Assembly: GCA_964036045.1 (NCBI GenBank)
Contig: OZ038379.1
Location: 114,045,604-114,109,603, forward strand
Direction: 5' to 3'
Origin: Eutreptiella sp. 'Long Island Sound 2002'
Lineage: Eukaryota > Euglenozoa > Euglenophyceae > Eutreptiales > Eutreptiaceae
Length of the DNA: 64,000 bases
Shown piece after piece: positions 4,390 to 58,304 of this stretch (positions are counted from its first letter, which is position 1; each line of letters opens with the position of its first letter). Under the pieces are notes generated by a model, which was not told the origin of the DNA, did not search any database, and worked only from the letters and a program-made list of their open reading frames with translations. A program made the position numbers and the translations under genes.

Positions 4390-4690
4390 AGCCCTTGATA
4401 CACGCTAGAATACCCAATCTCGTTCTAGCCTAGAACAGGCTAGAGAGGCTAGAACGAAAAAAAGAGGGGGATACCCCCCCCAGAGGGGGGGGGGGATGAG
4501 GTGTCCAACCTGGGCCCCCCTATCCATACTCGGGGGCCCATACTTTTTTTTTTCACAATTTCACTTTTTTCACCTGATTTTGGAGTCCAAAATTTTTTCG
4601 TTCTAGCGGCGTTCTAGCGACGCTCGCTAGAACGTCGCTAGAACGCCGCTAGAACGGTTCGCTAGAACGCCGCTAGAACGATATATATGA
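4390..4690. repeat. Left TIR and CGCTAGAACG array of element C
   Basis: After the TIR come G/C/T homopolymer tracts and then at least eight copies of CGTTCTAGCG or CGCTAGAACG in both orientations (about 4,608-4,680). They could fold into hairpins or act as clustered protein-binding sites. Confidence 0.85.
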
Positions 4691-4927
4691 ATGCTCCGCC
4701 ACTCCTCAAAGAGAAGCTGCCCCGGCTACCATGGCCAGCCGTGGCCAATCACAGGGTCCCGATGCTGGACCCGACTCACGGAGCGCCGGGTTCCCCCCCC
4801 CCCATTGGAAGGTCACTTGGCGGGCCGGCGCCGGGTCACGTGGTGGTGGGTTAGCCCGATTAGCCCGGTTAGCCCGATTGACCCCCCTGCCCCACCAGGC
4901 CCCCATTCGCGAGTCGCGACACGCAGG

Positions 4928-5631
4928 TTACCCCTCCTGCGTGGTCGGGGGTTGCCGGGGCTCATCCTTGCTCCTGGCACCCCCCTTCACACCCCCACAC
5001 CCCGTGTCCCCTTCCTTCTCACCCCCCTTGTCACCCCCCGCCTCACCCCCCTTATCACCCCCCTCCCCCTTGTCACCACCCTCGTCCCCCTCGTCGTCCC
5101 CGTCATCCCCGTCGTCCCCGGCCTCCAAGGCCTCCCGGAGGTGGGCCTCCGCCTCCTCCCGGGTGAGGAAGAGGAGGTCCCCCGCCACCCGGAAGGTGCC
5201 GCCCTCTTTCTCCCGTATCCTCTTCTTCCCCTTCTTCCCCTTCTTCCCCCCCTCCCCCTCCCCATTGGACCCCTGCGACACCACCCACCACTCCCCCGGG
5301 TCCAACTCCTCATCCCAATCCCCCAACACCGTCACTTGGCTAACGGTCCCCCCATTGCCCCCCTCCGCCCAAGGGACATACCGGGTGTCCGCCACACCCG
5401 GCACATTCCCATAGGGGTCCCGGCCCCTTTCTTGCATAGGGGGGGCTTGGGGTTTGGGGGGGGGGGGGCTGGCTTTGCCCTTGCCCTTGGCCTGCGGCTT
5501 GGCCTTGGGCTAGCGCTTGGGGGCTTGGGGGTGCGCCTCTTCGTCGCTACTCTCGACGTGGCGGGGCGGGGTTTTTTCTTGGGGGCCTTGGGGGGGGGGT
5601 TTGGGGGCCTTGGGGGGGGGTGTCTTCCCCC

Positions 5632-5681
<50 letters not shown>

Positions 5682-7594
5682 TCATCCCCCCCCTGGTCCT
5701 GCAACCTGGCCCAGCCCTTGCGCTGCGGGTCCATGCCCCCCGCACTCCTGCCCGCTTCCCACCTACCCAAACCCTCCAGCACCGAGAGGGCCAAATTGGG
5801 GTTCGCCCCGAATATCCGGCTCAACTCGGTGACCCCCACGAGGCGCGTCCGCCCTCCACCATCGCGCCACTCCACGCGCACCCCGCGGTGGTCGCCTCCA
5901 CACGTCTGCACGCTGACAACCTGAGGAGACAAACAAAATGCAGGTGCGTTCTAGCGTCGTTCTAGGCAACTGTTCTAGCGGCGTTCTAGCGACGTTCTAG
6001 CGGCGGCGGTACGGCGATGGCTAGATCAGCGCTAGAACGGTTCGCTAGATCAACGCTAGAACGCAATTGACATACCGTGCCTTGGCGGTCCAGGGCCGGG
6101 GAGATGGCCCCCAGTGCCTTGGCGAAGGGGTCCGCGGGGTTGGGGGGGTGCGGCTGCGGGGGGCCGCCAGCGGGGGCTGCGGCGGGCTTGGGCTTGGGCT
6201 TGGGCCGGGTGGCGATGCCGTGCACCACCCCGGCATACACCCCCCGGTTCGCCGCCTCGGGGCTGAAACCCCCGAAGTCCGGCGGCGCCGACCAGGTCGG
6301 CGTCCACACCCAGGCTTTCCCCACCCACTCAACCCCCCCCAAAGCCCAACCCCTGCAAGCAGTGCGCGACGAATCGCCAGTGGTTGGCCCCCCCCTTTTT
6401 CCGCTCGGGGGTCAAGATGTTGGTTTGCGCCAACTCAAACATCTTCACCCCCCTTTCGGGGGGGTCCCCACCTCCCCCCACCGCTTGTTCCCCGGCCCCG
6501 GCAACGCACGTTGCGGCCCCCACGACCCCTCGACCACCCCAGGGCGCAGGGGCTTGTCCAGGTGGACAACCCCCTCCCCATCCACCCATACCCACCGCCC
6601 CGCCCCCAACAGCCGGTGGTGCACCCGCACCAACAAAAACCGGAGAGTCCATACCGGACTCTCCGGGGCGACGAGGAGAGGGGTGTCCATGTTTGGGGGG
6701 TGGGGGCCAGCCAGGGCTGCGGGGTCCCATGGCGGGTCCTGGAGGGCCCCCGCAGCCCTCGACCCCATCAACCCCCTGAGCCCGTCGCTCGTCCCCCCCC
6801 CCTCCCCCCGCCGGCGCCGCCTCCACCACCTTGGTCTCCTCCTCCTCATCCTTCACGCTCGCCTCCTCCTCCTCCTCGCCATGCACGTCAACCTCCACCA
6901 CCTCGTCCACCTCCTCGTCCTTCACCCTCGCCACCACCGCCGCCAACTGCCTCTCGCACTGCCTCACCGCCCGCTCGAACCCCTCCACCGCTGCCGCCTT
7001 CTCGGCCACCTTCGCCTTCGCCTTGCGAAGGTTGGCCTCCGCCCAATGCACCCTTTCCTCCTCCGCTCCATCCTGCACCAGGCTCCGCAATTTTACCTCC
7101 CTGGCCGAGGCTTTCGTCTTAGCCCGGGTCTTGGCCGCCTTGAAGGCGGCGCGGGAATCCAAGAACCCTTTGAGGTCTCCCCGCGCCGCCTCCACCTCTG
7201 CCGGTTCCTCCAACGCCGCCGCCCCCTTCCGGGCTACCAACGGGGGAGGGGGTGGCGACGATGGACGATGGGCTTGAAGTTGGGGCTTGGGCTTGGACTT
7301 GGGCTTGGGGAGGGGGGCTTTGGGGTGCGGGGCCTGCTCGGCCTTCGGCTCCTCCGCCGCACGCCTGTCCGCCTCCAGTATTTGCGCAATCATCGCCTAG
7401 GTCGCTGCGTTCTGTAGCACAAGAGCGTTCTAGCGGCGTTCTAGGCAACTGTTCTAGCGGCGTTCTAGCAACAGTCTAGCGGCCGATCGTGTTGCCTAGA
7501 TCAAGACTAGAACGATTCCCTAGATCACCGCTAGAACGCACAGCACGAAATATACCTGCCTCACCAGCTCGTCCAGCTGCTCCCGCGTAGCCAT
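4928..7594 (-). CDS. Element C accessory protein (coiled coil, poly-Ser, Lys-rich)
   Basis: Three exons: 7,594-7,556, 7,396-6,076 and 5,920 to about 4,928. The ATG at 7,594 starts MATREQLDELVRQ, which splices in frame onto AMIAQILEADRR. Next come an Ala/Lys/Glu-rich coiled coil, an acidic stretch, a domain with VKMFELAQTNILTPERKKGG, Lys-Pro repeats, a 16-residue poly-Ser, a basic KKGKKGKKR patch and an acidic Asp-Gly tail. A frameshift lies near 6,340 and another in a C run near 5,450. A TAG at 5,510-5,512 interrupts a Lys/Pro linker that stays open in frame (QAPKR, stop, PKAKPQAKGKGK). Domains resembling its VSVQTCGGDHRGVRVEW segment occur in the accessory genes of B and D. The family is unknown; a nuclear DNA- or chromatin-binding helper is my inference. 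Confidence 0.6.
5633..5683. repeat. (GCT)n microsatellite encoding poly-Ser
   Basis: About 15 GCT units read AGC on the minus strand within the element C accessory gene; one unit is altered. Confidence 0.9.
5921..6075 (-). other. Intron of element C accessory gene, filled with CTAGAACG palindromes
   Basis: 155 bp with donor ACG|GTATGTC and acceptor GTCTCCTCAG|GTTGTC on the minus strand. Splicing joins DRQGT to VVSVQ in frame. The interior holds CGTTCTAGCG units on one side and CGCTAGAACG units on the other, so the intron itself can form a hairpin. Confidence 0.85.
7397..7555 (-). other. Intron of element C accessory gene, filled with CTAGAACG palindromes
   Basis: 159 bp with donor AGGCAG|GTATATTTCG and acceptor CGACCTAG|GCGATG. 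Splicing joins the 13-codon first exon to the second in frame. The interior has the same CGTTCTAGCG word as the other two introns, so the three introns resemble each other rather than their exons. Confidence 0.85.
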
Positions 7595-7741
7595 CTTGGA
7601 TTGCAAAAGTCTGGTTACAAGAAGCCTGCATATGACCCTGGCCCCTCCTTACCTCCATGGCATCCTTGCCCGAGCATGGCACTTGCGACCGTGGCCCCCC
7701 ATGCACAACCCACGCCACGTCAAAGTACGCAAACAACCATG

Positions 7742-9684
7742 TCATGCATTGCGCTTGCACATTAGCCTCCCTGTGGATGACCGACAATTGACGACTCGAC
7801 ACCTCGTCCACCCCCTCCACCCGACAGCCCCCCCCCCCCCCCGGTTGCTGTGCTCGTTGTGACCATGTTTCAGAAAGCGGTTAATGCTTTCCGAAATGTC
7901 ACCGGAGAACATAGCCAGGCCAAAAGGCTTAATGTTGTGCAACATGGTATCTACATCGTGCTCAAGGCTTAGTAGATACAATGATGCTGTTCGAGCAGTG
8001 CGGTGTCGCCGGAAATCGCGCACAACAGCAGCAGAATTCAAAGGGTTAGGGCCCTGATATGTACAATAGAGGGCCTGCAGCAGGACCCACATGTTCGCGA
8101 TGGCCTTGTACTTGGCCGTGCTGGGCCTAATGCCGAGGCACTTAGCAATATCCGGCCATGCGTCAAAAAAATTAGCCGTCTCCTCCCCATCCGGGGGATG
8201 CTCACCCATAAACGCTCCAACCTGCACGCCTCTCCGACAGGAGAACTTGCAGGTGTCGACGGAGCGCAGGGGTGAACAACCTAGCCTCCCGAGCGACAAA
8301 CTCCCCCAACAAGCGGCCCATGGCCATTGTCAAGTGCAAAATGCACAAGACGACCAAGGCACGTGGCAATTTCAAAATGGGCTGCGTACTGCAGCCGGCG
8401 GCTTGCAAGGATGGCGTCCTAAGGAGGAAGGCCGTGTAGTTGGCCTCATCACCCTCCATGGTCCGGGGGTTAGCACTACCCTCCCAAGTCTTCGTTGGGG
8501 CATTCCATATGCCCTCATTGAACATGGAGGGCACTTGGGGGCATGTGGACACCCCGATCACCCGTCGCGTCCACGGTTGAATCCCCCCGAGGATCACCTT
8601 TGCCTTCTCCTTGGAGGCCCCCCATTGGACCAGCCCCGTGTCGATGATCTCTTGAATCACCTAAACACGAGACATGGGGGGTGGTTAATTTCGTTCTAGT
8701 CTAGTCCAATCTAGCGTCTAGCGAGCGGTGTTTGAGGCCGACTAGATCAAAACTAGAACGAGTGAAAGGCACTACGTGAGAGGACTACCTCCCAATTGCT
8801 CTTCCACCACGTCCCAAGGGTCTCCATGGCCTTGTCATCGCAATTGGCCATGCTCAACACCCAAAGGCCCGCTAGGGAGCGGGCCAAGCGCTCGAAGTTG
8901 GCCAACGAGATGGTGAGTTGGGTCCAATTGCCCCCGGCCACGGGGTAGGCATCTCCCCGGACGATGAACATCAATGGGAAGGTGCGGTTGAATGACCGCA
9001 CCAAGCCCGGCCGGGAGAGGATGTATGTGACCCATGAGGCGAAGGGCCATGAGATCCCGGTGGCCTTGGGCAACACCGTGGCAACGGGGTTGTCCACTTG
9101 CACCGGGGCGACCAACTCCTTCCAACGGGCTTGGAAAGCCCGCTCGGTACAAATTGGCCGGGAGTAAGGGCCATTAGGGACGGTGCGGTGATACTCCAAC
9201 TTACGGAGGGTGTAGAGCTCCGAGAGGGTCCTCCACGACGACTTGGGGGCCCTCATGTTGAGCACTAGTTCACACATGGCGGTAGGGGAAGTAGGGAGGC
9301 GGTGTATGCCTCAACGGCGGCCTTGCACTCCTCACCCGTGGTTTGGGTAGAAGTGGCGGAGTTCACATGTTGGACGGCGTTGTTGAATTGCCGCCGTGCT
9401 AGGGGGCATGATAGCGCCCACGTGGCCAAGTAATGGCCCACCCGCTCATCCTTGAGGTTTGAGGCCCCACTCAAACCCGTAGTGCCTTGGACAAAACGGA
9501 AGTATCCTTCCCGGGTGAGGAGGGAGCAAGGAGGGTAGTGGCGCGGCGTTTCATTGCAAAGAAATGTGCAATATCTAAGCGGGAACGAAGGAAGCATGGA
9601 ACAATGCACTACGGACAATAGCAAGCAAGCATGAACGCACGCACGCACGGAACAATGAAGAAATTGGGATATGTTGGTAGACAT
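7742..9684 (-). CDS. Transposase-like protein of element C
   Basis: Exons run from about 9,684 to 8,789 and from 8,660 to about 7,845, joined in frame by a 128-bp intron (KSNWE to VIQEI). Frameshifts lie near 9,270 and 8,240, and a C run at about 7,828-7,843 shifts the 3' end. Candidate catalytic residues are Asp in FIVRGDAYPVAGGNWT and Glu in SGDISESINRFLKHG, followed by a His/Ser/Asn/Arg/Gly tail (HNEHSNRGGG). The VILGG block resembles the second-Asp region of the transposases in A, B and D. The late motif ExxNxxxK corresponds to ExxHxxxK in those copies. A DDE-type RNase H fold is inferred from motif spacing. I could not assign it to a named superfamily; KDZ is one to test. Confidence 0.6.
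8661..8788 (-). other. Intron of element C transposase with CTAGAACG repeats
   Basis: 128 bp, donor GGGAG|GTAGTCC and acceptor GTGTTTAG|GTGATTC. It keeps the reading frame and contains a CGTTCTAGTCTAG ... CTAGAACG inverted pair. Confidence 0.85.
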
Positions 9685-9689
9685 TATAT

Positions 9690-9780
9690 CGTTCTAGTAT
9701 TGATCTAATCTAGGCTAGAACGTTCTAGCTAGAACGTTCTAGGCTAGAACGAGATTGGGTTCTCTAGCGTGTACCAAGGG
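9690..9780. repeat. Right TIR and CTAGAACG array of element C
   Basis: Inverted partner of the left end. It holds CGTTCTAG and CTAGAACG units (9,694-9,750) and ends TACCAAGGG. Confidence 0.85.
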
Positions 9781-13505: not shown

Positions 13506-13762
13506 CTCCCCGAACTAACCGCGTAACTACAAAGCCAAGAGACATTCGCCAACTTGCTTCGGAATGCAGCCAAATCATGGCGGGTGTCTATTATGTTGTT
13601 ACACTGGCTACCTAGGGATTTTTCCTCCTTTTTGGTGTAAATGAAAACTTTTTACCCTGAAAAACCCCGGGTTTCATGCCCCTCTCGTGCTGAAAACACT
13701 CCTACACGGTAAAAAAGTCCCAAAGTTGGCTTCCTGGGCCTTGGCTCGCGCAAATTGACAAG

Positions 13763-13840
13763 TTGGCGCGCCAAGTTGCAAGTTGGCGCGCGCCAACTCC
13801 GGAGTTGGCGCGCCAAGTCCGGACTTGGCGCGCGCCAAGT
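13763..13840. repeat. Element A1 left TTGGCGCGCGCCAA array
   Basis: Four palindromic units, alternating 12-bp TTGGCGCGCCAA and 14-bp TTGGCGCGCGCCAA forms, spaced by short words such as AGTCCGGAC that are palindromic themselves. Confidence 0.9.
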
Positions 13841-14172
13841 GTCCCCCACCGATCCAACCATCGACTTGCACACTATTGTTGTCACTGGAAATTCCGTCCC
13901 TCACCTGCCCTTGCACACTTGGCACGAAGAAAGCATGGTTCCATGTTTTTTTGTGGAATGTGCAAAAGAATGTGTAAAACAATGTGCAAGAGATGTGCTT
14001 CCCGATGATGAAAGTAGTATACATTGTGGAGCCGTAGCTCAAAATTGCCTTGCTGGGGGCCATGGAGGCATAGCAGTCATATATAGAGGTCAGATGTCTT
14101 GCTGTGGTCCCAGGGTCATCTGGCAAGTGGGTTGCCGGGAGAATGCCGGGCGGCACTGAATGAATCATTAGG

Positions 14173-15834
14173 TTAGTACCCGTGTTCGGCCTGGACGAAG
14201 ACCCCCTTATTCTCTATGCACCCCCTTTGCTTCGTCCACGACGACTCCCAAACAGAAAATTTTTTCTTATACAACCCCCAGTCCAGATTATCTGAGCGGA
14301 TCACCTCCCCCCACCCCTTCCGCGTGCGATCCCCCTTGCCCCCCTTCACCCGCACTCTGGCCCCCCGCAGTCTGGACACCCAACCGCCTTTACTTCCACC
14401 TCGAAAGCTGCGCTTGGAAATTTCACATTTCACGGCTTTGTGGCGCCCCTCTCCTTTGAAGGCGGCAAAAATGCCAATGTGCCCCCACCTGCGGGCCCAT
14501 CCCAACAGGTGGTCAATCCATAGATGGCCCCACAGGGTGACGTTCATTTCACAGGCCTTATGGGCCTCTACATTTTTTTCAATTCTGTTCGCAGAATTTT
14601 CATGTAGGGCAACTGCAATGGTCCCGATTTCCAGACGACATCGCTTGTTGCCAACAGGGATTTTCCCCATTGCCGGAAGGCGTCCGTCCAGGACACCTGG
14701 ACCCCCCCCATGTCAACGACATGCTGCAGGAGGCCCTGCCCCTCCAGATGGTCACACATGGTGTCCCATCCCTCACTCTTCACCCACTCTGCAGCCGCCG
14801 TCTGCTCGATTTTCAGGGGCACCTTCTTCTTATCCTTCCTCTCGTCTTCCAACGCCACACCGGTGGCGGTCCGTGCCTGGATCCGAATGGGATCCAAGAA
14901 CCATTGCACCCACCTCATGGCCTTTCCCTTCTTCCACCGATGCACCGTGTGGAGGCTGGTCACGAGGGCTGAAAGCCCATTGTGCACTTGCCGGTGCACG
15001 CCATGCAGCCCATAATCGGGGGCCCGCTGGGGGGGGGGGGCGCACGATCGGGTATATCATCCCTGCCCAGAGCTACTCCTTGACAATCACCCCCATCCCG
15101 CAACCAAATTCGTGCAGGATGGTTGCCCAATTTTTCCCACACAGCCAACAAACAGTGGCTGCAGGGTTTTTGGCTGTGAACGAGGAGCAACCCCCCAAAA
15201 TGACCTGCGCTTTGGTGTCTGCTATAAAAAAAGGAATCACCTCACGCAGGTAGCCCCCTTTATCGGGAATTTGCTGCTGCGCCACCTCGATGAGGTCCGC
15301 GTTGAGGTCATACATCTCGGCACATAGACCACATCACCTGTGCCAAAAAACAGGGCGTGTGTAACGGGTCACCGTGAACGGTCGCCGGGAAACGCTTTGG
15401 TGCAGGATGAAAATACCTCCGGTTTCTGCCACAGATTGCATGCGGCCCCAAAAATGTCATTGTCCTTGTCGGTCCGAAAATGGACCTCCGTGACGCGGGG
15501 GGCGGACAATGCCTTTCGCACCTGCATCAGGGTTCCCCATGGGCACTTCCATTGGCTGTGGCCCCGGCTGTACTGCAGTTTGCGGAAGCTTTGCCATTTT
15601 TGCGGCTCTCCCACAGAATGGCCGCGGCCAACGGCTCCAAATCGGGGGTGGGGGGTTCGTGCTCCCCGCAAACGAGGTGGATGCGGCGGCGGCCGGGTTT
15701 AACGTGTACTTGCCAATGTGGCCCCAGGATCTCTCCGACGGCTTGGCGAAGGCGCGCCAGCCGCACGCGCCTGTCGCGGTAGTTCGATGGCGCCAGGTGC
15801 TCAAAGGCCCGCTGCATCGTGCACAAACAAAGAC
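14173..15834 (-). pseudogene. Transposase of element A1, internally deleted
   Basis: N-terminal block HLAPSNYRDRRVRLARLRQ matches the start of the element B enzyme (LLADHTRRRRLQELQE). A GAAC block (about 15,440) follows. The frame then jumps to the second-Asp region (FFIADTKAQVILGGCS, VCWLC, about 15,150-15,230), skipping the segment that carries the first Asp in B. The C-terminal half has LWGHLWIDHLLGWARRWG and FKGEGRHKAVK (ExxHxxxK), then KGWGEVIRSDNLDWGL, shared with E. Frameshifts lie near 15,010 and 14,590. The missing first Asp and the shifts suggest a dead enzyme. The last frame ends in TAA. Confidence 0.7.
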
Positions 15835-15947
15835 CTGTGGCACGTGAGGACGTGGCAGGCGGGTTGGATCATACAAGGGAAGGTTGGCGCACGTTGGCAC
15901 AGAGTTGGCACACAGTTGGCACGCAGTTGGCGCGCGCCAACTCAGGA

Positions 15948-46382: not shown

Positions 46383-46429
46383 CATGTGCACGCATTGTGC
46401 ATTGATGATTGATGGGTGAAGTGTGCCTC

Positions 46430-46660: not shown

Positions 46661-46829
46661 GTGTTGCATGTTGCCTATACGGGTGCAGACCCATGTTAGC
46701 ATGTAAATCCTTGCAGGCCGGGTTGCCTCACACAGTGTTGCACCGCAAGACATCGCAGGGCAGGCGGGTGACAAACCGTCACTCCGTTGTGAACAGAGCG
46801 CAGCAATTCTATTTGTTTCGACAAAGGCC

Positions 46830-47399
46830 TGGGGTCCCCTCATTGTAGGGCTGAACAATGAAGGTCTCTTGCAACATGTCGTGGAAGGGGGTCACACTTG
46901 GGCGCAAAATTTTGATTCGTGGTGGGACTGTCTGCACAAAAGTGCAACCATTGCCAAAAAGGAGGGGCTGTTAGGAGCCCAAGAGATTGACACCCTAAAA
47001 AATGTGCTACCCCAACTGGCAGTGCATCACAAAAGGTGCCAACTGGGGCAAACCCTGTGGGTGCACCTTTGGGTTGACCACATGCTTGGGTATGCTAAGC
47101 AGTGGCATGCCCTTGGCGCCTTTGCTGCCTTCAAGGCAGAAGAAAGGCACAAGACTCTGAAAACAGAGATTCGGTTTAGGAGCTTCAAGGGGGGGGCAAG
47201 GAAAGTAAAAGGGAGGGTACGGGGACGGAGAGGTAGACTGGTAAGGCAAGTTTTCGTGAAAGGGTGGAGGGAAGTTGTAAAGAATGATAATCTGGATTGG
47301 GGTTTGTTAAAGAGGGGGTGGGATGTATCGGTGCGTGCATGGACACAACAACCACACGTGAAAGAACACAAAACGTATTGGAAGGCCAACGCGCCTTAG
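46830..47399 (+). pseudogene. Transposase C-terminal part of element E
   Basis: Begins GLLQHVVEGGHTWAQNFDSW, matching GLLQHVVDMGG in A1. Then come TLWVHLWVDHMLGYAKQW, FKAEERHKTLK (ExxHxxxK) and GWREVVKNDNLDWGLLKRGW. The two Asp blocks and the Cys knuckle expected upstream are absent; unrelated sequence sits at 46,690-46,830. The first stop is TAG at 47,397; reading it adds ten codons before TGA. Alone it would be inactive. Confidence 0.7.
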
Positions 47400-47559
47400 C
47401 AGTCAGCATGGTGTTTCAGCTCTTGTGTATGATATTTGATTTGGGATTCCATTGAATTGCTTTGGGCAAGTATACTACGTCTTCAATGCACATTGCATTC
47501 AACATGGTGTTCTGGTGCAGTGATGTGCTTTGCAAGGGAGGGAGCGACCAACCTGAGCA

Positions 47560-47790
47560 ACGTTCGTCTGTGGATGAGTGGTTATGGGCGTAGACTCCGG
47601 CGGCAGGGCTCCTTGGTTCGAACCCTGGCCTGGCCAACTCCAAAAATAGCTCCAGCCCTGCACCTGCCACCTCGTCGTCAAACAGCCTCCAGCACAGGGA
47701 TGGTGGCTCCAACAAGACCAGCCCAGCCCACGCTGGGACAGCCACAACAGACTAGCCCTCGGTAGGCCTTATTACTAAAAAACCAAGGGC
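47560..47790 (+). repeat. tRNA-derived SINE candidate
   Basis: A-box-like TGGATGAGTGGTTATGGGCG and a perfect B box GGTTCGAACCC 35 nt later, followed by a unique body and a short A-rich end (TACTAAAAAACC). The acceptor stem does not pair, so it is not a working tRNA. Confidence 0.45.
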
Positions 47791-47994
47791 AGCTGGTGGT
47801 CACATTTCAATGCCTGTCTTCAGCGTCTGTGTTTGTTGGTTGCCCCACTAGGTAGGTCTTAGGCAAGCATCTCCTCATCGCCTCTTCGGCCGGATCCACC
47901 TCCTTTGTGGGCCCCTAGTCATGCGGTTGGGGTCGCCTCACGATCTTCCCTCTCCTCGTGGTCTTGTGTGTCCTCATCCTAAGGTGCAGACACA

Positions 47995-48078
47995 GTGCGT
48001 ATGCAAGGGTTCGAACCCAGGGTTCCGAAACGCAAGGAACATGCACATACCTCTAGACCAACCAGCTGCCATACCACA
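47995..48078 (-). repeat. tRNA-like sequence, degenerate
   Basis: On the minus strand GGTCTAGAGGTATG (A box) and GGGTTCGAACCC (B box) with a GTTCC/GGAAC anticodon-like stem but a 9-nt loop and unpaired acceptor. A tRNA relic or SINE head. Confidence 0.4.
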
Positions 48079-48089
48079 TAACACGTAGG

Positions 48090-48268
48090 CGGTGCGTACG
48101 AACTGCGTACGCACCAGCAGATCAACGCGTACGCGTCGGTAATCTAACACGTACGCGTTGATGTTTCGACGCGTACGTGTTAAGTTACTAACGCGTACGC
48201 GTCGAAACACCAACACGTACGCGCCACGCACCCAACGCGTACGCGTTGCACTTCCAACACGCACGCGT
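48090..48268. repeat. Element E right-side ACGCGTACGCGT array
   Basis: Six ACGCGTACGCGT units alternating with AACAC spacers. Element D inserted at its end (48,283). Confidence 0.9.
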
Positions 48269-48479
48269 CAGAGGACAATCTGTGGGATGCAGCGTTCTAG
48301 GGCGTGGTGCGGAACCTCTAGTTAGAACGCAATTTCTGGAACACCCACCTACCCTCAATTTGGGGGCAAACCACCTAAAAAAATGGATTCAGCACCCCCA
48401 AAAACCCCCCATCCCCTTTCTTTCCCCACATAACCCTCATTGTAGGGGTGGTTTTTTTGGGGGGGGGGGTCAAAGAGTT

Positions 48480-48605
48480 AGAGCACAGTTAGAAGAGAGT
48501 TAGAACGCAGTTAGAGCACCTTGCTCTAACTATATAGTTATGGCGCTAGTTATCGCGCGATAAGTCAGTTATCGCGTAGTTATCGCGTGTAGTTATCGCG
48601 CACCC
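48480..48605. repeat. Element D right-end (3') array
   Basis: GTTAGAGC/GCTCTAAC units followed by GTTATCGCGCGATAA and TAGTTATCGCG units. Confidence 0.9.
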
Positions 48606-48670
48606 CTCCTCCCTCCCTCCCTGGGACAAACAACACAAAACACTTGGCACAAACCATGTGTGGTCGTTTT

Positions 48671-50392
48671 TCATACAAAGTCATCAATGTCTGAGGCCTT
48701 GGCTGCCTCCAGTCCCAAAAGCCCTTGCTCCAGGGCGTTCATGGACATGCAATGGTGCATGTGGCGGAGGAACACACTTGGCCTCACCAAGGACCAACCC
48801 TTAAAACAATTTTTGAGCCTCCTTTTGTAAGGCCCATGCCGATACTCCGCTGGGATGGAGGAAAACTGAAAAATGTTCCTCCATTTCTCGGCAAAAAAGG
48901 TGGAATGTGCCAAGCACCAATGGATCCACCTGGTGGGGGACCAACCTGAGTCTCCCCACGCTTTTGAAAATTTTGTGGCCAACGCACGGTGGCGTTCCAC
49001 TTGGGTTAGAGTGTACAACTCCCTCACCCTCCAAAGCTCATACAAACCCTCAATGCATTTCACCATGACATGCACAACAACCCATAACATAGGTCCCCCA
49101 GGGGTCCTCACTGTGGGGACATGCTCTTTGAGGCAATCCACAAATTGCCTTTGGAAGGGGGGGGGGGTTAGGAAAACTTTGGTGCTTGTTAGATCAAAAT
49201 CTTTTTCTGTGGCCCTCGAGGCCGAAGGGAGGCGTTCCCTGAGAGGGATGCCTGAGGTCTCATCCTTGAGGGCTTGTTTGAAGGCCTGCAAAGCTGCAAG
49301 AGCTTGGGCCTTACCAGGGGTACCAGGGGTGAGGGTCTGAAGGGTGGTCTCAATGCGCTTTGCAATGCCGTTTAGGATGCGGCATGCTGCATGTTGGTAG
49401 TCCCCCGGCCGCCTATCAGGGGTCACACTTCTCAAGAATGCCCCCCATCTTGAGGTGGACTCCACCCCCCTTTGCTCAACAATCCCATTGGGGTCTTTGC
49501 ACAACCAACACTTAGACCCAGCCCCCCCCATTGCTTCCATCCCCTTCCCATCCCCTGTCAAAATGACAGTGCAAGTCAAAAATTGGTTTGGAAAGAGGAC
49601 AACGTCCTCTTCCACATCCCTCACCTCTTGGTTGAGGTTGGCGGAGATGTCCAGGCTTCTCAAAAAAGCCTGTTCATCCCCGCCATCCATGCAAAACCAT
49701 GAGGCCCATAGCTTCACCTTCGAAGCATATTTTGCCCCCCCCCCATACATTAACCCATACATCCGCACGGGTGGAGGATGCCTTCCACAGGGAAGTCGCA
49801 TCAACTGAAATAACAACAATGGCAACGCCACTAGGGGGGGGTTTCCCGATAACTCGGGCCATAGATATTGCATTTTGCACAATTGATTGCAAAGGCACAT
49901 GGGCAGCTGCCCTATTGCGGCCTGTGGTAGACTTTACAATGGTTGTTTGGGGAAAGTAGGGCATGATCCGTTGCCGAACGGTCCTTAGGTCCCGTTGTGT
50001 GCAACGGCGGGGCATTCGCAAAAGGGCCCGTTGGGAGAGATGCATGCTGCATGCCATGCGTAGCATGCTCAGGGCCTCATGCTCCTGAGCTGTTAATGCA
50101 AGATGGCCGCCAAGTGGGCCAGACAGGGCAGTGCACTCCCACCACTTAAACAAACTTCTCCTTTGGTGTTGGTGCCACACACAACGTTTGGGTCACCCAA
50201 TAGAACTCGCACCAGCCGCTGAACCGCCTTCAAACGCCGCCGCCGGGCCTTGGGGCACTGCAGATCGGTGTAGCGTCGGAGGTTAGCTGTGTTGAGAGCC
50301 CGCAGGGCCTCGTTGAGAGCACTATCCATGAAGAATAAGAGGACCTGGGCAGGAAATGAGGGAGGGTTTTGAAGCAAGGGCCCAAGAAACAC
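48671..50392 (-). pseudogene. Transposase-like protein of element D, frameshifted
   Basis: Starts near MFLGPLLQNPPSFPAQ (50,392). Basic block CPKARRRRLKAVQRLVR matches B. After a shift near 50,170 it reads the first Asp in VVISVDATSLWKASSTRADV. After a shift in the G run at 49,735-49,744 it reads VILTGDGKGMEAMGGAGSKC with CWLC (second Asp and knuckle), TPDRRPGDYQHAACRILNG, WIHWCLAHSTFFAEKW and IPAEYRHGPYK (ExxHxxxK). D, D and E are all kept. Both shifts lie at or near homopolymers, so it may be intact in reality. It ends in TGA. Confidence 0.7.
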
Positions 50393-50600
50393 ACGCGATA
50401 ACCCACGCGGTAACCCCCGCGATAACTAGGTTATCACGCGATAACCTCCGCGATAACCCCCCGCGAGAACTAGTTAGAGCGCGATAACCCCCCGCGATAA
50501 CTAGTTAGAGCACCGAGTTATCGCGCGATAACCCCCGCGATAACTAGTTAGAGCAGGGGTTAGTGCGCACTAATTGGAGGGGTTAGAGCAAGCGTTGGGC
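50393..50600. repeat. Element D array between TET/JBP and transposase
   Basis: CGCGATAACCCCCGCGATAA and TAGTTAGAGC units, eight or more. It occupies the 5' leader of the transposase frame. Confidence 0.9.
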
Positions 50601-50828
50601 ACCCTAAAACCTTCACGAACGTTGATTTTGCACCCAGGAAACCTTGGAGATGTCAACAATGTGCAGGCACGGGGTATATGGCGCCACAATCACAAATTCA
50701 AATCAGTCAAATGGACATGTTCCGGGCTACTTGCCCCTCCTCAGAGTACACAATGACAAACCATGGTGGGCATCCCACCAAAGCAGAAAAAATAGAAACA
50801 GTGAACAATAATCGAATCACAAATTACA

Positions 50829-51463
50829 CTAGCTGGAGGGGTTGGAGGAAGCATTGGGCACCCTAAAACCCATGGACACCAGCTGCTGCCGCCACACAGG
50901 CGTGCAGTGCAGAACCCCCCCCGCACTATAAAAAATCACGCTCCATCGCTCGCCCTCCCATGGCAATGGAGCGTGTAGTGCCCTGGTGTTGAACAACACC
51001 GGGGCTTGGGGGGTGGCGGTGCATGCCCAACCCTCCACCGCCCTACCCTTGCACACACGGGTGTGCCGCTTTTTTTCCCTCATGGAGGGATTCAGCAGGC
51101 CACCACTCTCCACCCAAAACTCACCCCCCGTGAAAGACCCCACACACACAATAAGCGCCATGGGCGCCCCATCCCGCAAATGGGAGTGGAGGCCCATGGT
51201 GTCCGTCCCTTGGGGGCAAACAATTTGGATGCTACACCATGTGTCAACCATGGTGGAGCATTGGAGGTGCAATACCCATTGAGGTCTGCAACCAAGGGGG
51301 TGAGGGCAGGCCTGAGGGTAGCAGCGGCCACGTGGGTCACCCTAAAATTAGAGGGGTTGGGGTTTCCACTTCCCACGAGGCCGAAGTGGCAAATGTCCAG
51401 TTGGGCCCCATATCGCTCCTCCCCACGAAAAATGCCCTTGGACAACCCCCTTAGCAAACCCAC
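50829..51463 (-). pseudogene. TET/JBP-like dioxygenase of element D, altered HxD
   Basis: Same fold region as the element E enzyme. After LNGYCTSNAPPWLT a one-base shift near 51,245 leads into CSIQIVCPQGTDTM, then LHSHLRDGAPMALIVCVGSF, TGGEFWVESGG, VLFNTRALHAPLPW (distal His) and EGERWSVIFYSAGG (Arg). Where E has HKHQD, this copy has HSHLRD, with one extra residue between the His and Asp positions, so iron binding may be lost. Without the shift the frame would be complete. The first stop is TAG at 50,829-50,831, with TGA three codons on. Confidence 0.65.
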
Positions 51464-51466
51464 GAG

Positions 51467-52388
51467 TCATTGGCTCCCACTCCTACTCCCGCTACCCTGA
51501 CTCTGCAACCCTTGCGGCGCCAGCCCCTGCTGGGCGGTGAAGGAGGCACTGAGGGTGGAGGTGAGGCTGCGCACCTGCGCCTCAGCCACCCCCAAGCGCT
51601 GCTGGAGGTCATCCCCCCTCCTCCGCTGCCCCTCCACCTCCATCCTAAGCTGGGCCGCCTCCACCTCCGCCTTCCGCCTCCCCTCCTGGGCCTCCCTCAA
51701 GGCCTCCCTCATCGCCTCCACCTCCTCACCCCTCTTGGCGGCCAGGTTGAGGGCCTGGTCCAGGGCACGCTGGGTGTTGCCCTGGGCCTTTTCGGCCTTC
51801 GCCAAGGCCGACTTGTGGTCGGCCGACCGATCCTTGGCCAGTGCGGCCTCGACCCCCGTGGCGGCCGCCTGCTCCACCAAAACCTGGCAAGCGTCCGTCA
51901 CATGGGTGGCCACACTGGCCCCCAAGGCCTCCACGTCCAGGGCCTCATGGGGGGGTTGGGCCGCCGCCACCTTTGCCACCTTCGATGGCTTGGGGGAGGG
52001 CTTGGGGGCGGGGGTTTGGCCCTTACCCCTAAGGGGGGGGGGGCATCCCGCTCAACCACCACCATGTCTGGTCCCCGCTTCGTCTGGCCTTTTCCCGGCC
52101 TTCCCCCCTTGGGTGCATACTGCCGAACCCAATCGGCAGTGGCGTCCACCACAGAAGGGGGGGGGTCATACCCGCCAACCTGGTGGATGCCCCCCCCCCT
52201 ATGCAGCTTCTGCCACACTTCCCTCCCCGTATACTCCCCCTCCCACAAAAAACACACCCTCAAAAGGAAATAAGATTTCCTTTGGGGGGGGTCGCTCATC
52301 CCAAACAAACACAAAAAAGCCGCAACCGTTTCCCCCTCTGCGGCATTCGGCCACTTGGCCGTTTCCCCCCCAACCCACACATAGGAGT
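51467..52388 (-). CDS. Element D accessory protein, C-terminal part (coiled coil)
   Basis: Continues the exon at 55,045-55,325 across A2. Reads VCFLWEGEYTGREVWQKLHR, GGYDPPPSVVDATADWVRQY, a basic KGGRPGKGQTKRGPD patch, and after a C-run shift near 52,035 a long coiled coil: EALGASVATHVTDACQVLVE, LAKAEKAQGNTQRALDQALN, EAMREALREAQEGRRKAEVE. It ends GSGSRSGSQ and TGA. Its architecture matches the accessory genes of B and C. Confidence 0.55.
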
Positions 52389-52626
52389 GTAATTACGAAG
52401 CCAAGAGACATTCGCCAACTTGCTTCGGAATGCAGCCAAATCATGGCGGGTGTCTATTATGTTGTTACACTGGCTACCTAGGGATTTTTTCCTCCTTTTT
52501 GGTGTAAATGGAAACTTCTTACCCTGAAAAAACCCGGGTTTCATGCCCCTCTCGTGCTGAAAACACTCCTACACGGTACAAAAGTCCCAAAGTTGGCTTC
52601 CCGGACCTGGGCTCGCGCAAATTCAC

Positions 52627-52747
52627 AAGTTGGCGCGCCAAGTCGCAAGTTGGCGCGCCAAGTCCGGACTTGGCGCGCGCCAATTGGGAAGTTGGCGCGC
52701 GCCAAGTCCGGACTTGGCGCGCCAACTTGCGACTTGGCGCGCGCCAA
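52627..52747. repeat. Element A2 left TTGGCGCGCGCCAA array
   Basis: Six palindromic units, colinear with 13,763-13,840. Confidence 0.9.
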
Positions 52748-53214
52748 ATGTCCCCCCACCGATCAAACCATCGACTTGCATACCATTGTTGTCACTGGAA
52801 ATTCCGTCCCTCACCTGCCCTTGCACACTTGGCACGAAGAAAGCATTGTTCCATCTTTTTTTGATTAATGTGCAAAAGACTGCGAATGTGCAAGAAGCTG
52901 TCAAATCAATTATATAAATCATATATAGAGGTCACATGCCTTGTTCAGCCCGGACGCAGACCCCCTTATTCTCTATGTACCCCCTTTGCTTCGTCCACGA
53001 CGACTCCCAAACCGAAAATTTTTTATTATATAACCCTTAGTCCAGATTATCTGAGCGGATCACTTCCCCCCACCCCTTCCTCGTGCGATCCCCCTTGCCC
53101 CCCTTCACCCGCACTCTGGCCCCCCGCAGTCTGGACACCCGGCCGCCTTTACTTCCACCTCGATTTCACATTTCAGGGCTTTGTGCCGCCCCTCTCCTTT
53201 GAAGGCGGCAAAAA

Positions 53215-53989
53215 CGTGGTGCACGTGCTTTTGCAGTAAACAGTACATTACGTGAAGATGATGTAACCCACTTGATGGCGTCGGGACATGCCACTGTGCA
53301 ACTGATGCACAAGACGCCTTCCTTGTGGAGAAGGGCTAAAATGCCGTGGATTTTTGGAAATGCCAAACAAATACAGAAGCAGCACCCCTCCCTGTGTGCA
53401 CCTCAAGATATTTGAAACGAGCAAAACTTGAGCATGAAATTATGGGCAAAATTGTGCACCCACTGAGTAGTGGTTGAAAACAAGCTCTATGAGGCAATGC
53501 CACTCGGCTTTGTGCGCCGAATAATGCCTCTAAACAAAGTTTGAGCATGTCCCAGGAGTTGATGACTATGGCTGTTGGACACTGCAGCAATGTACAGGAA
53601 GGTGGGTGGCACTTTGCAGTGCAGAAGAAATGTGTGGACAGGCAAACAGTGGGGATCACTGTCATTCTTCTTCCATGTACTGACCACACATAATCTGCGT
53701 TGCAAAGCTCCCAGAAGTTGATCACTATGGCTGTCGAATGCTGCAGCAAAGCAGGGGCAGCTGGGTGGCACAATGCACTCCAGAAGAAATGAGCAGAAAC
53801 AACCCGGCTGGATGTAGTCCCTTCCTCAAACCCGAGACCTTGGTTCCCCGGAAACATGCAATTGTGCACATTGGGGGGGGGGGGGGGCGTTGTTGTCCTG
53901 CACACCTGAATAGCTGTCCTACATCCACCAGAACCATCAAAAACCCATTACCCTGGAAAAAGAAGGTGATGTGGAAATGACCCCAGGCC
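53215..53989. repeat. Filler in A2 with a 157-bp tandem repeat
   Basis: No A-family similarity. Two diverged copies (about 53,548-53,650 and 53,706-53,800) share TTGATNACTATGGCTGT and GGGTGGCAC...GCAGAAGAAAT. A minus-strand frame crosses both but is not a convincing gene. Confidence 0.6.
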
Positions 53990-54102
53990 TGCATGGTGCA
54001 CAAACAAAGACCTGCGGCACGTGAGGACGTGGCAGGCGGGTTGGATCATGCAACGGAACGTTGTTGCACGTTCGCACACAGATGGCACACAGTTGGCAGG
54101 CA

Positions 54103-54284
54103 GTTGGCGCGCGCCAATTCAGGATTTGGCGCGCGCCAACTCGTCAGTTGGCGCGCGCCAAGTCCTGAGTTGGCGCGCGCCAAGTGGCAAGTTGGCGCGC
54201 CAACTTCCCATTTGGCGCGCGCCAACTCCCCTGTTGGCGCACGCCAAATCAGGATTTGGCGCGCCAACTTACCACTTGGCGCGC
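54103..54284. repeat. Element A2 middle array, the uninterrupted insertion site
   Basis: Colinear with the A1 intron array. At 54,121 it reads CAGGATTTGGCGCG without the retrotransposon found at the same place in A1. Confidence 0.9.
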
Positions 54285-54610
54285 CTGGTCAGGGCGAAGT
54301 TAACACGGGTGGCGTCAATTCGCCAAACCAAGTGGGGCTGCCCGCCTGGTCCCACTTGCCGAAGAGGGCGGCCTCCAGGGGTTCGCGGAGGGGGGGGAGC
54401 TGGGGGAAGGATTCGGCGTCCGGGGAGGTGAGGGTGTAGGGGATGGGAAAATAGCCCCCGGGGAAGTGCTCGGAGCCCACGTTGGCGATGTGGGCATCGA
54501 CCCCGGCTGCACCTCGGGGTTAGGTGGTGCAGCGGGGGCTGGGGCTGGGGCAGACGTGGGGTCGGTGACTGTCACCTTCTTCCCCTTGCCCTTCTAGGGT
54601 TGCTTTGGAG
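54285..54610 (-). pseudogene. MPAKQP first-exon remnant in A2
   Basis: Keeps HFPGGYFPIPYTLTSPDAES and FPQLPPLREPLEAALFGKWD of the 11,370 copy, in two frames, and stops at VWRIDATRVNFALT against the array. The expected start codon region reads CATGCCTCCAAAGCAACCCT (minus strand ATGCCTCC...), and TAG interrupts it early. Confidence 0.6.
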
Positions 54611-54682
54611 GCATGATAACGTGAAATGCCTAGAAGGGAAAGGGAATGCATAAAGGGTGCAAAAGAAGAGGAAGAATGGGGC

Positions 54683-54816
54683 ACTTGGCGCGCGCCAAAA
54701 CCGGAGTTGGCGCGCGCCAACTCAAGAGTTGGCGCGCCAAGTTGGCGCGCCAACTTGGCAGTTGGCGCGCCAACTCTTGACTTGGCGCGCGCCAACTGCA
54801 AAGTTGGCGCGCCAAC
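54683..54816. repeat. Element A2 right TTGGCGCGCGCCAA array
   Basis: Eight palindromic units in the leader region, colinear with 11,143-11,272. Confidence 0.9.
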
Positions 54817-55044
54817 TTTGACTTGGCTTCCAAAAAGTTGGCTTCGACCCAAAAAACCCACATATTGCATCATAACAACAACGCAACGCAACCGAAAGCT
54901 GTAAAATATCAATAGTTCCTCACGTTTCATGCACAAGGCGTAGCAACAACACAGTGCACAAGTACAAGCAAGTTGAATGCTCTCGACATGGAGTTGACCA
55001 GGAGTTGGCGAATGTACAGTATCTGGGGTTGGCTTCGTAGTTAC

Positions 55045-55325
55045 AAGGGGAGGGTGAGGTTGGTCTTCCTCTCCACCCCCCCCTCCTTCTCGGTGATGGT
55101 GACCTGCCCGTACCATCCCGTCCCCCCCATCCTGCAGGCCTCATCCCCAGGCTCCCCCCACCGCCACGACGCCCCCTCCGGCAACCTCTTCGCCCCCTCC
55201 AGCTCCAACCGGGCCGCCACCGGCTTGGCGGGCCGTGCCCCTGCTGCTTCTGCTACTCCGCATGCTGCCTCGGCTGCCTGGGCGTCGTCCTTGACGAAGA
55301 TACGGGGTAGCTGCAAGATGGTAGC
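55045..55325 (-). CDS. Element D accessory protein, exon split by A2
   Basis: Begins ATILQLPRIFVKDDAQAAEA, spliced in frame from CPCHQ of the dioxygenase exon, so both may be one protein. It continues with GASWRWGEPGDEACRMGGTG, WYGQVTITEKEGG and ERKTNLTLP, where A2 cuts in. The WYGQVTITEKEGG strand resembles GGTVSQVTVLGDWDEE in the element C accessory protein. Confidence 0.6.
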
Positions 55326-55561
55326 CTGAAAAAAACAAAAGAAACAAAAAAAAACACGCGATAACCCGCGCGATAACCCCTGCGATAACTAGGTTATCGC
55401 GCGATAACCCCCGCAATAACCCCGCGATAACTAGTTAGAACTCGATAACCTAGCGCGATAACTAGTTAGAGCGCCTAGTTAAAACGCGATAACCTAGCGC
55501 GATAATTAGTTAACTAGTTAGAGCAGGGGTTAGAGCAGGGTGTTGTGGGAAGTTTTCACAC
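55326..55561 (-). other. Element D intron filled with CGCGATAAC words
   Basis: 236 bp. Donor TCACCAG|GTGTGAAAAC, acceptor TTTGTTTTTTTCAG|GCTACC. Splicing keeps frame (CPCHQ-ATILQ). About 12 GTTATCGCG / CGCGATAAC and TAGTTAGAGC units fill it. Confidence 0.85.
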
Positions 55562-57733
55562 CTGGTGACATGGACACATGCCTTGGCCCTCCTTCTTGGC
55601 GTCATCCAGCACCAGGCCCAGCCTCCGCAGCCACACGAAGTCCGTGACGGCCGCATACTCCCCCACCTGCCGCCACTCCACCACCTGGGCCACCCCCTCC
55701 ACCTCAGGGGCCACCCTTGCCACTCCCCCATACAACCCCCTCCTCACCACCAAAATGGTGCCCGCCGGCACCTTAATCCCAACATGCCCTTGCAAGGTGG
55801 GCCAGGGCAGTGCCTCCCCATGGCACACCTTGGCCAAGGGGCACTGATCGGGGTGGCCTGCGACCGCCCCCGCCTCCTCATTAGTGAGGGGGGCAATCAC
55901 CTCCCTCCCAATCCCCCACCCCGACAACAAAAAATGCCCTGTGGTTGTTCCCACCGGGAGCAAGCACTGAGCAGATTGCTCAATGCTGACCCCATTGGGG
56001 TCCACCACCACCTCCTCCTCCTCCCCCCCCTCCACCTCCTCCCCCTCCTGGCATGGCACACAAAGGCCATCTTTGTGGGCGGTGCACAAAATCAGCCGAT
56101 TGCATCCGTAGCAATTGGCTACCACCTTCCCCCTACACCTAACCGCCCCATCACACTGGACTGTCCTGGCCACCCGGCCACCACGTGCCCACAGCTGGGG
56201 CCTTTTAATGGACTGCGTCACGTGCAGGTTGGGGAATCGAAGATTCCCCCCCTGGGTAAGCTCAATGGCAAAAAATGCCATGAGGCGGGGGTCCCTTACC
56301 CCCATGGGGGAGGCCTTGGGAATCCCCGACCCCCTGTGGACATCAAGGGCATTAAAAAAAAAAGGCAGTGCCCCTCTTGAATGGCACAGCCCTCTCCACC
56401 CAAGGGTCAGGGAACCCCGAACTGCTGGAGGGCACAAAAAGAAAATGTGACCCATCCTCCTCCTCATGATTATGGGTTAGCATAATAAGGCAATTGACAA
56501 TCAATGTGCCTTCAGGAATGGTGTAGGGGGGGGCGTCGCGATGGAGGTGCTGCGGGGTGTGGTCATAGCTCGAAATTTCGGCCATGTCAAGGATGGTGCA
56601 GCTCCATCCGAACCCCCCCCACCACAGTCTTCTTCGCGGTCTCAAGCACACGATCTGCCACCCTTTTGAGGACTAGCAGATCATGGAGCTTGTGGAGGTT
56701 GTGCTTGTGGTGGTTGGCACCCCCATAGTTGCCATACAATGTGCGGCGGGTCCCAGAATCTTGGGGCCTGCCGACAATGGGGGGGGTCACATTCAAAATG
56801 GGTGCCTTCTCTGAGAGAGGCACCCTATCCAAATCATCCAAAAGACTTTGCAGCTGAATGTCACTCAAAAAATCGTGTTCCAGCAGGTGGTTGACCACCA
56901 GCTTTCCCCCCACCGTGAGCACAAGGTCATTGGGGTCCCTATTAAAGGCCCCCAAGGACTCGGCCGCAACCACCTCCTCTGCCTCCCCAATAAGGGGGGG
57001 TGTTGCCCCAAATGGAAAAAGAATCACCCCCTGCCCCGAAATAATGTTGGGAGTGGTGACCCCATACCACTCACGCTCCCACTCCCTTGTGGGGCAAAGG
57101 GAGTGCATGGGGAGCTTGTTTTCGGGGTCGTCAGTGCAGACCCGGCGGGTGTTGTGGGTGAGGGGTTGGGGGAACCAACCATCCGACTTCCCCTTCCCCT
57201 TACCAGGTCTCACCCTTACCTTGTGGACACTAATCATGAGGGGGTTGTGGGGCTTCTCCTTCCTCCCCCTAGCCCCCACCCCCCCCGCATCCTCCTCCTC
57301 CTCCTCCACTTCCTCCTCCTCCTCCTCCTCACCCACATAGAGGGTCCTCTTCGTCCCCGCACCCTTCTTGGCATGAGCGGTGACGGACTCCACCACCGCG
57401 TCCACATCCTCGGTATGAAGCTGGATCAAAAAATCCAGCAAGCCCCGGATTTACCTCTAGCAACTCGAAGATGTAGTTGCTGAGAACCAGGGGGTCTCGC
57501 TTGTCCGCCATGAAGGGGGACTTATGGACAAGGAGTCCAAAGTCCACACCATGTTCAAAGCGGGTCGCCACAGGGCGCCTCACATTGGCATCACCCATCG
57601 TAAACCCCTCAGGACCGCCAAGGCGACGGACCCCAAGGAGCTTTTGATGGTGCTCGCACCAAGCGTGGGCAGCAGCAAGGGCCATTACGAAGAATATGAA
57701 AGCTTTGAGAGCTAAAGCGAAAAGGGGAAACAT
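55562..57733 (-). CDS. Element D dioxygenase with Cys-rich cluster
   Basis: N-terminal block TRFEHGVDFGLLVHKSPFMA and SNYIFELLEVNPGL (57,580-57,440), one-base shift near 57,440, LDFLIQLHTEDVDAVVESVT, a Glu run, and a central region. Then a 2-oxoglutarate Fe(II) dioxygenase core: HxD in TPQHLHRDAPPYTIPEG, GSHFLFVPSSSSGFP, a shift in an A10 run (56,354-56,363), FFNALDVHRGSGIP (distal His) and RDPRLMAFFAIELTQ (Arg). A Cys cluster follows: QCDGAVRCRGKVVANCYGC, LCTAHKDGLCVPC. A barrel-like region (GGVARVAPEVEGVAQVVEW) leads to the splice donor. The substrate is unknown; a nucleic acid base or a protein are both possible. It starts just after a D array. Confidence 0.6.
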
Positions 57734-57734
57734 A

Positions 57735-57862
57735 AAATGAAGCGCGATAACCTACGCGATAACCCCCGCGATAACCCCCGCGATAACTAGGTCATCGCGC
57801 GATAACCCACGCCATAACTAGTGCTCTAACCCCGTTCTAACCCCGTTCTAACTAGTTAGAGC
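57735..57862. repeat. Element D left-gene (5') array
   Basis: CGCGATAACCCCCGCGATAA and GTTCTAACTAGTTAGAGC units upstream of the first D gene. Confidence 0.9.
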
Positions 57863-58304
57863 ACACAAAGATCAAATCGCAAAAAGTGCAAAACGGGCAA
57901 TATCGAGCAAACGAAACATGGAAGGCACATTGTTGCATCATAGTGCACCCATGTAACATGTGAAATTCCGGGTTCCAACCATATTAACAACACCCAAAAT
58001 TGGGGGGGTTCCGCACCACGCCCTAGAACGCTGCATCCCATGAAAGCAAAGTTTTGGGAAATTCAGTATGGTTTTTGGGACACTCTGCACAGGGAGAAGG
58101 CGACCTACGGTCGGCAATGTTTGCAGTGGCACCCAGTGGTGTAAGGGAAGTGCAAAGTTGGGTTGGGTTGAATTTTCCATGAAAAATGACAAATTTCCAA
58201 CAAAGAAAAAACCGACGCGTACGTGTTGAGATTTCAATTTAACACGTTAAAGTTCAAGTTAAACACGTACGCGTCTATGTGAACAGATCTTAGCGGTTAC
58301 ATGG

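Follow-up and report, generated by a model that had tools for sequence, protein, structure and literature searches.

Family-private arrays of CpG-containing words at the ends and in the noncoding interior of nested DNA transposons of Eutreptiella sp.

The window analysed here, a stretch of 64,000 nucleotides of contig OZ038379.1 of Eutreptiella sp. 'Long Island Sound 2002' (positions 114,045,604 to 114,109,603) within which word counts and arrays were assessed, harbours five families of DNA transposons, termed A to E, each of which carries arrays of its own short, CpG-containing and mostly dyad-symmetric word. The arrays flank both ends in all five elements and recur at separate places in the interior of each. 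Pooled over the five families, 116 of 122 word sites fall within the family that owns the word, whereas 5,000 circular shifts gave 11.7 on average and reached 116 in four cases. The claim of one private word per element, made in a preliminary description of this DNA, is thus upheld far above chance. We lean, at slightly better than even confidence, towards reading these arrays as docking sites for a DNA-binding protein encoded by the elements, probably an accessory one, that would act in mobilisation and against silencing.

The layout was derived by self-alignment, terminus alignment and reading of the sequence. By its reverse-transcriptase, piggyBac-type and CACTA-class genes and a GT..AG intron, the window (G+C content 55.7%) is eukaryotic mobile DNA. 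Terminus alignment showed that the five families have differing ends, in line with the initial view of several transposons with different terminal inverted repeats (TIRs). The nesting is deeper than was noted at first: A2 lies inside D, which lies inside E, and the main A copy, A1, is interrupted twice, by a reverse-transcriptase element and by an element with 590-bp direct repeats that itself contains B. Inspection of the flanks revealed two-base target-site duplications (TSDs) at A2 (AG), B (TT), C (AG) and D (TG), and none at E or A1. A start of A at 10912 and an end of E near 48290 were ruled out by self-alignment and terminus alignment. The elements are as follows.

4392..9780: element C, TIR CCCTTGRTACACGCTAGA, TSD AG (TIR alignment, flanks)
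10912..~12116, minus strand: A3, a separate piece of an A end in inverted orientation, holding a single A word cluster and a portion of the second gene
about 12116-13520: piggyBac-type remnant with a DDE_Tnp_1_7 domain
about 13522..41837: A1, the main A copy, interrupted at ~16306-21990 and 22981-41721
33037..39982: element B, TIR TGTACCCTTCGTGAAC, TSD TT (TIR alignment, flanks)
45146..58301: element E, TIR TGTAACTGCTAAGAT, interrupted by D
48283..58040: element D, TIR TGGGATGCAGCG, TSD TG, holding A2
52388..55045: A2, an A copy shortened by deletion and nested in D, TSD AG, with three A word clusters retained

The A word TTGGCGCGCGCCAA has 22 exact sites, all in A copies. With up to two mismatches, the B word AATTCGTACGAATT is found 23 times, always in B, and the E word ACGCGTACGCGT 19 times, 17 of them in E. 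All 25 sites of the D half-word CGCGATAAC are in D, and 23 of the 27 sites of the C word CGTTCTAGCG, at up to one mismatch, are in C. The chance expectation for these words over the whole window is 0 to 2.3 sites (first-order Markov, mean of three simulated sequences). Exact forms of the words as first named are scarce for B (1), D (2, the full 16-mer) and E (3), and half-sites and near matches carry the signal. Perfect palindromes of at least 10 bp number 160 in the window, compared to 55-76 in ten simulated sequences. The six stray sites comprise four of the C word (two in D, two outside all five families) and two of the E word (outside). That the words do not mix, as had been proposed, holds for 116 of the 122 sites and fails at the D termini, where each TIR contains one near match of the C word (48298 and 58026), a case of minor mixing. 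All five main words contain CpG, as originally described; their palindromic nature has to be qualified, as the C word is no palindrome itself. B repeats a second dyad, TTCACGTGAA, beside its main word, with five copies that are all in B (33088-33377; 37578-37642). Taken by itself, the A word is found in at least 120 stretches of IMG/VR, at one place in 79 of the 80 matches listed.

Looser merging of near matches gave 146 sites, 138 of them in their own family, which form 25 clusters. None of the 25 overlaps the homology-based coding spans (42.6 of the 138 sites expected; P about 8e-5, assuming uniform clusters), two of which, 38404-39600 and 11370-12116, depend on one 34-residue match (E 2e-4). 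Likewise, looser open reading frame (ORF) spans, drawn by hand with the arrays in view, contain 0 of 138 sites versus 72.1 expected. The noncoding placement first suggested is therefore sustained. Its extension to every noncoding segment is refuted by 53215-53988 (A2) and about 47400-48090 (E), which have no recognised gene and no array, and its extension to introns is supported for one intron, in C, and plausible elsewhere. As read, the order in A, B and D is an end array, the transposase gene, an array, further genes and an end array. The clusters are listed below.

4400..4685: C word clusters, left end
5940..6065: C word cluster within the region of the second gene
7420..7545: C word cluster between the second gene and the transposase-like gene, also in P0078, P0079, P0080, P0082 and P0094 (weakly in P0083)
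8661..8788, minus strand: C intron of 128 bp, GT..AG, with degenerate C words
9690..9755: C word cluster, right end
11150-11268: A3 word cluster
13741..13845: A word cluster, A1 left end
15883..15950: A word cluster in the A1 spacer, cut by the inserted reverse-transcriptase element
21990..22180: A1 spacer cluster, continued beyond the insertion
22756..22890: A word cluster, A1 right end
33300..33380: B word cluster, left end
35380..35520: B word cluster in the gene spacer, found in P0013 too, upstream of the transposase
37480..37655: B word cluster within the region of the second gene (possibly intronic)
39660..39800: B word cluster, right end
45180..45375: E word cluster, left end
46430..46680: E word cluster between the dioxygenase-like ORF and the transposase part, also in P0064 and P0071 (weakly in P0065)
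48090..48275: E word cluster adjoining the D insertion
48480..48610: D word cluster, left end
50384..50570: D word cluster between the transposase and the dioxygenase-like ORF
52636-52740, 54110-54282 and 54692-54810: A2 word clusters
55350..55545: D word cluster within the region of the second gene
57740..57870: D word cluster, right end
58210..58290: E word cluster, right end

At its left end, E has an extended near-palindrome in which TIR-like sequence and E words are mirrored within ~260 bp (45146-45405), and the mirrored stretch 45188-45345 resembles a miniature element inside the end.

Alignment of homologs supports the intronic position of the C array at 8661-8788. Among 27 homologs of the C transposase-like protein (8,000 candidates scored), none has an alignment that extends past residue 271 by more than 4 residues: matches to the N-terminal half stop at or before 275, and those to the C-terminal half start at or after 268. 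One homolog, P0097, has pieces from both sides of the intron break, but without 163-341.

The arrays also recur in database proteins. Three similarity searches, with the B transposase, the E ORF and the C gene, yielded 99 proteins (P0001 being the window's own), which were aligned to the window by tblastn (E 0.01, overlap of at least 45 bp with an array span), a sample thus picked by protein similarity. Overlap with an array span was found for 14 of the 99, two of which (P0010 and P0016) are explained by transposase homology. The remaining 12 carry array-encoded sequence, always that of their own family and none of another family at this threshold: P0013 for B; P0064, P0065 and P0071 for E; and P0078, P0079, P0080, P0082, P0083, P0089, P0090 and P0094 for C. 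Low identities were seen in P0065 (51%), P0083 (30%) and P0089 (36%). This small sample agrees with the privacy of the words.

The internal order of the arrays is strictest in A and B. The seven A arrays comprise 40 palindromes of 12 or 14 bp with the half-site TTGGCG and 0-2 free central bases; among the 29 gaps of at most 25 bp between palindromes, 27 are exactly 8 bp long, with 23 different sequences. The nearest centre spacing is 20-22 bp in 38 of 41 cases for A and 11 bp in 17 of 20 for B. Such distances of one or two helix turns would suit proteins lying side by side on one face of the DNA, an argument that is strong for A and B only. The homologous end arrays of the three A copies were further compared for differences in words and in linkers. 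Between A3 and A2, words differ at 5 of 90 positions and linkers at 17 of 41 (p 1e-6; flanks 8.9%); between A2 and A1, the values are 1 of 78 and 18 of 40 (p 2e-9; flanks 11.9%). In these two of the three pairwise comparisons, the A words are kept and the linkers change; exchange of units inside the arrays may contribute to the contrast. These results bear on the view that the arrays are ordinary slippage repeats of noncoding DNA, homogenised within each element and functionless, to which we give very little credence. It is true that Tandem Repeats Finder calls many of them as arrays with periods of 11-24 bp, and that the array stretch is 85% alike between A3 and A2, compared to 92% and 95% in the neighbouring stretches. 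Against this, words are kept as linkers change in the two comparisons above, and one element holds the same word at several separated places; simple slippage repeats were rejected on the A linkers, which are fixed in length yet free in sequence.

Retention of the arrays in a defective copy was observed as well. A2 has lost most of the transposase gene, yet retains its three clusters. Its end matches the A1 end at 99% identity over 118 bp, so the two copies are recently related. With clustered repeats near both termini that are kept in the nonautonomous copy A2, the elements conform to subterminal-repeat transposons in general.

The transposase genes of the elements are as follows.

7745..9540, minus strand: C transposase-like gene, frame-shifted in the present copy and split by the intron 8661-8788; 27 relatives
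14176..15333, minus strand: A transposase (A1), with D2, C2C, H4H and E present and D1 not recovered
33503..35263, minus strand: B transposase, one open frame of 587 residues with the complete CMCT signature
46707..47396, plus strand: E transposase, C-terminal part only, with H4H and E
48674..50192, minus strand: D transposase, two overlapping frames with all signature residues

A protein search with the B transposase gave at least 48 matches, the window's own included, and a profile built from these relatives detects A, D and E. B and D have D, D, C(2)C, H(4)H and E in order; in the excerpted text of PMC12730594, the residues D, D, C(2)C, H(3-4)H and E define the CMCT transposases (EnSpm/CACTA, Mirage, Chapaev, Transib). 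By profile and signature, the transposases of A, B, D and E belong to one family bearing the CACTA/Mirage/Chapaev/Transib signature, complete in B and D and partial in A and E. The common family proposed earlier for all five elements accordingly stands for these four; a single family A to E was rejected, since the C transposase-like gene has no significant match to the profile. CMCT membership rests on the signature because no curated family matches: the B transposase and 14 of its relatives gave no Pfam match beyond three chance hits and no sequence likeness to Plavaka or any other Pfam transposase model. A structure model of the B transposase reached a predicted local distance difference test (pLDDT) score of 49.8, and Foldseek returned 342 matches up to E 10, none of them at 0.001. 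No relative of the B transposase was confirmed among the 48 pattern matches in IMG/VR or the 82 in prokaryote genomes.

The closest published counterparts of the arrays, described here after excerpts of the papers cited, are found in plants. In Arabidopsis, the VANC proteins of VANDAL elements bind to short motifs, which vary from one related family to the next and evolve in the manner of tandem repeats, and VANC21 accumulates in introns and in intergenic and terminal noncoding regions (PMC5735166, PMC10398659). The maize Spm protein TnpA binds to repeats in the subterminal regions, and these repeats are not the same from one CACTA family to another (PMC2613891); TnpA has also been linked to demethylation (PMC10398659). 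As the anatomy fits this VANDAL/VANC and CACTA/TnpA kind, we regard the arrays as sites at which a reader made by the element itself binds. All five families have arrays of their own, mostly dyad-symmetric words at the termini and in gene spacers, and one array, in C, is supported as intronic. In the mechanism we propose, a DNA-binding protein of the family in question, probably an accessory one, would dock on these arrays as dimers in a regular row. The end arrays would mark the element for mobilisation, deletion derivatives such as A2 included, and the interior arrays would keep the whole element open against methylation-based silencing, in the manner of TnpA and VANC. Related elements would drift to different words, and each protein would therefore serve its own family. 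We infer protein binding, the identity of the binder and the anti-silencing role; co-evolution of protein and word is plausible.

A possible though doubtful alternative is that the words are transposase sites for excision and integration only, the interior arrays being by-products of end duplication or aids to transposase synapsis. Arrays at both ends of all five elements, and their preservation in A2, would be expected from this, and many DNA transposons are known to have clusters of sites near their ends (PMC2613891, in excerpt). It accounts less well for interior arrays that lie at separate places in each element, the C intron included, and at the same places in database copies. The transposase itself is not our first choice as binder, because the spacer and intron arrays exceed the needs of end recognition and because the binder is an accessory protein in the two closest known cases (TnpA, PMC2613891; VANC, PMC5735166). 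We think it quite improbable that a host factor or host silencing acts on the arrays, or that they are structural features (cruciforms or promoters, for instance), with no element protein involved. CpG palindromes are plausible as host regulatory or methylation sites, and the arrays adjoin genes, where promoters would be; however, a family-specific word with almost no sharing is not expected of a common host factor.

Several observations weigh against docking by an element-encoded accessory protein. C, D and E show only partial regularity in their spacing: 11 bp in 7 of 18 and 24 bp in 3 of 18 cases for C, 12 bp in 5 of 21 and 24 bp in 3 of 21 for D, and 22 bp in 6 of 13 for E. The third comparison of A end arrays, A3 with A1, revealed no difference between words (5 of 78) and linkers (2 of 40; p 1.0; flanks 6.5%). 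D repeats a further palindrome without CpG, TAACTAGTTA (six copies), and a second gene common to A and B is indicated by one weak 34-residue match in A3 (E 2e-4). CpG depletion with an excess of TpG and CpA is expected where CpG is methylated, and the D transposase span is indeed CpG-poor (observed/expected 0.36, TpG+CpA 1.40) while the D arrays are full of CpG; this contrast is indecisive, because in a CpG-decay test the CpG positions inside words were not uniformly better kept than other positions. Finally, the privacy of the words is drawn from one window and a small protein sample.

Compared in more detail, again by the excerpts, the present arrays share with those of VANDAL, a MuDR-type element, private motifs in introns, intergenic and terminal noncoding DNA (the intron here in C only), differences from family to family, tandem-repeat turnover and an element-encoded reader, which is putative here. 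They differ in the transposase class and in words that are mostly palindromic, contain CpG and have fixed spacing in A and B (PMC5735166, PMC10398659). With En/Spm and other CACTA elements they share the broad transposase class, by signature, and private subterminal motifs (PMC2613891, PMC10398659); a reader separate from the transposase, like TnpA, has a putative counterpart here. In contrast to the subterminal sites described for CACTA elements, the arrays here are also inside the element, and the target duplications are two-base, not three-base. PlavakaA elements have a 2-bp TSD and TGT..ACA termini, as do A2 and B, whereas D has TGG..CCA and C has CCC..GGG termini, both with 2-bp TSDs (PMC12730594). 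The word 'subterminal' is absent from the excerpted text of PMC12730594 on Plavaka.

Further genes and ORFs of the elements include the following.

35860..39600, minus strand: B second-gene region, with the N-terminal ORF at 38404-39600
45852..46379, plus strand: E dioxygenase-like ORF, a motif-level assignment, with 24 relatives (alignment)
50832..51341, minus strand: D dioxygenase-like ORF, 35% identical to the E ORF over 136 residues

The pattern HxD..H..R is visible by eye in the family of the E ORF, with one extra residue at HxD in D. We take it to be the pattern of 2-oxoglutarate/Fe(II) oxygenases, which no tool confirmed for the D and E ORFs. Neither these ORFs nor the other second-gene ORFs have a Pfam match; the dioxygenase-like ORF also lacks a PDB sequence match, and its structure model has a pLDDT of 31.9. 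As a guess at the motif level, the dioxygenase-like protein might be an effector in D and E. If the assignment is right, it resembles the TET/JBP genes of some fungal transposons in the excerpts of PMC12730594, where the TET-bearing Plavaka is PlavakaB, whereas the likeness in termini and TSD is to PlavakaA. An unlikely possibility is that the words form a demethylation address for each family, with an element-encoded reader lined up regularly on the private CpG dyads throughout the noncoding DNA of the element and an element-encoded TET/JBP-like dioxygenase, for which the D/E protein is a candidate, clearing 5-methylcytosine there. Reader and word would drift together, and one genome would therefore hold many non-interfering reader-word pairs.

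Pfam gave no hits on 20 long ORFs of the window and, on 20 further ORFs, three above the cut-off: RVT_1 (18112-18738), DDE_Tnp_1_7 (12390-12935) and Pkinase (60053-60715). Of two PDB sequence searches, one returned a single chance match and the other none; across the window, Rfam gave no hit at the gathering score and ARAGORN none. In 12116-13520, the DDE_Tnp_1_7 domain adjoins GACCGGTC palindromes, 10 of whose 11 window sites are located there, beside A1 (41845-41951) or near 44400-44850 (44434-44841). This piggyBac-type remnant possibly represents a sixth element, from another superfamily and with a CpG word of its own. The element at 16306-21990, inserted in the A1 spacer array, is DIRS-like, with RVT_1, 88-bp direct repeats at its ends and an ORF (20217-20885) that appears tyrosine recombinase-like by eye. 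The element at 22981-41721, in the right end of A1, has 590-bp direct repeats that are 98% identical and a sub-threshold reverse-transcriptase match (23333-24028); no clean target duplication was seen for it. Arrays of CpG words outside A to E include AACGCGGAT units at 43125-43345 and a 319-bp stretch of ACGCGCAGC units in two copies of 95% identity (25992-26310, 62330-62648). The Pkinase match is barely above the Pfam cut-off, and its ORF lies in the right flank, a region rich in tandem repeats.

The kind of system is already known, as family-private motifs in introns, spacers and ends have been published for VANDAL/VANC. As far as our searches show, what is new is the setting, the dyad form of the words and how many private words occur next to each other; the listings from literature searches of open-licence PMC text included no account of arrays like these in elements of this sort. 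If confirmed, the arrays would extend sequence-specific self-recognition beyond the transposase class and the lineage of Arabidopsis VANDAL, and would suggest a recurrent way for transposons to address only themselves. Confirmation might also provide a supply of dyad-binding proteins for epigenome work, and five private words side by side would offer a direct test of how DNA-binding specificity and its target drift together.

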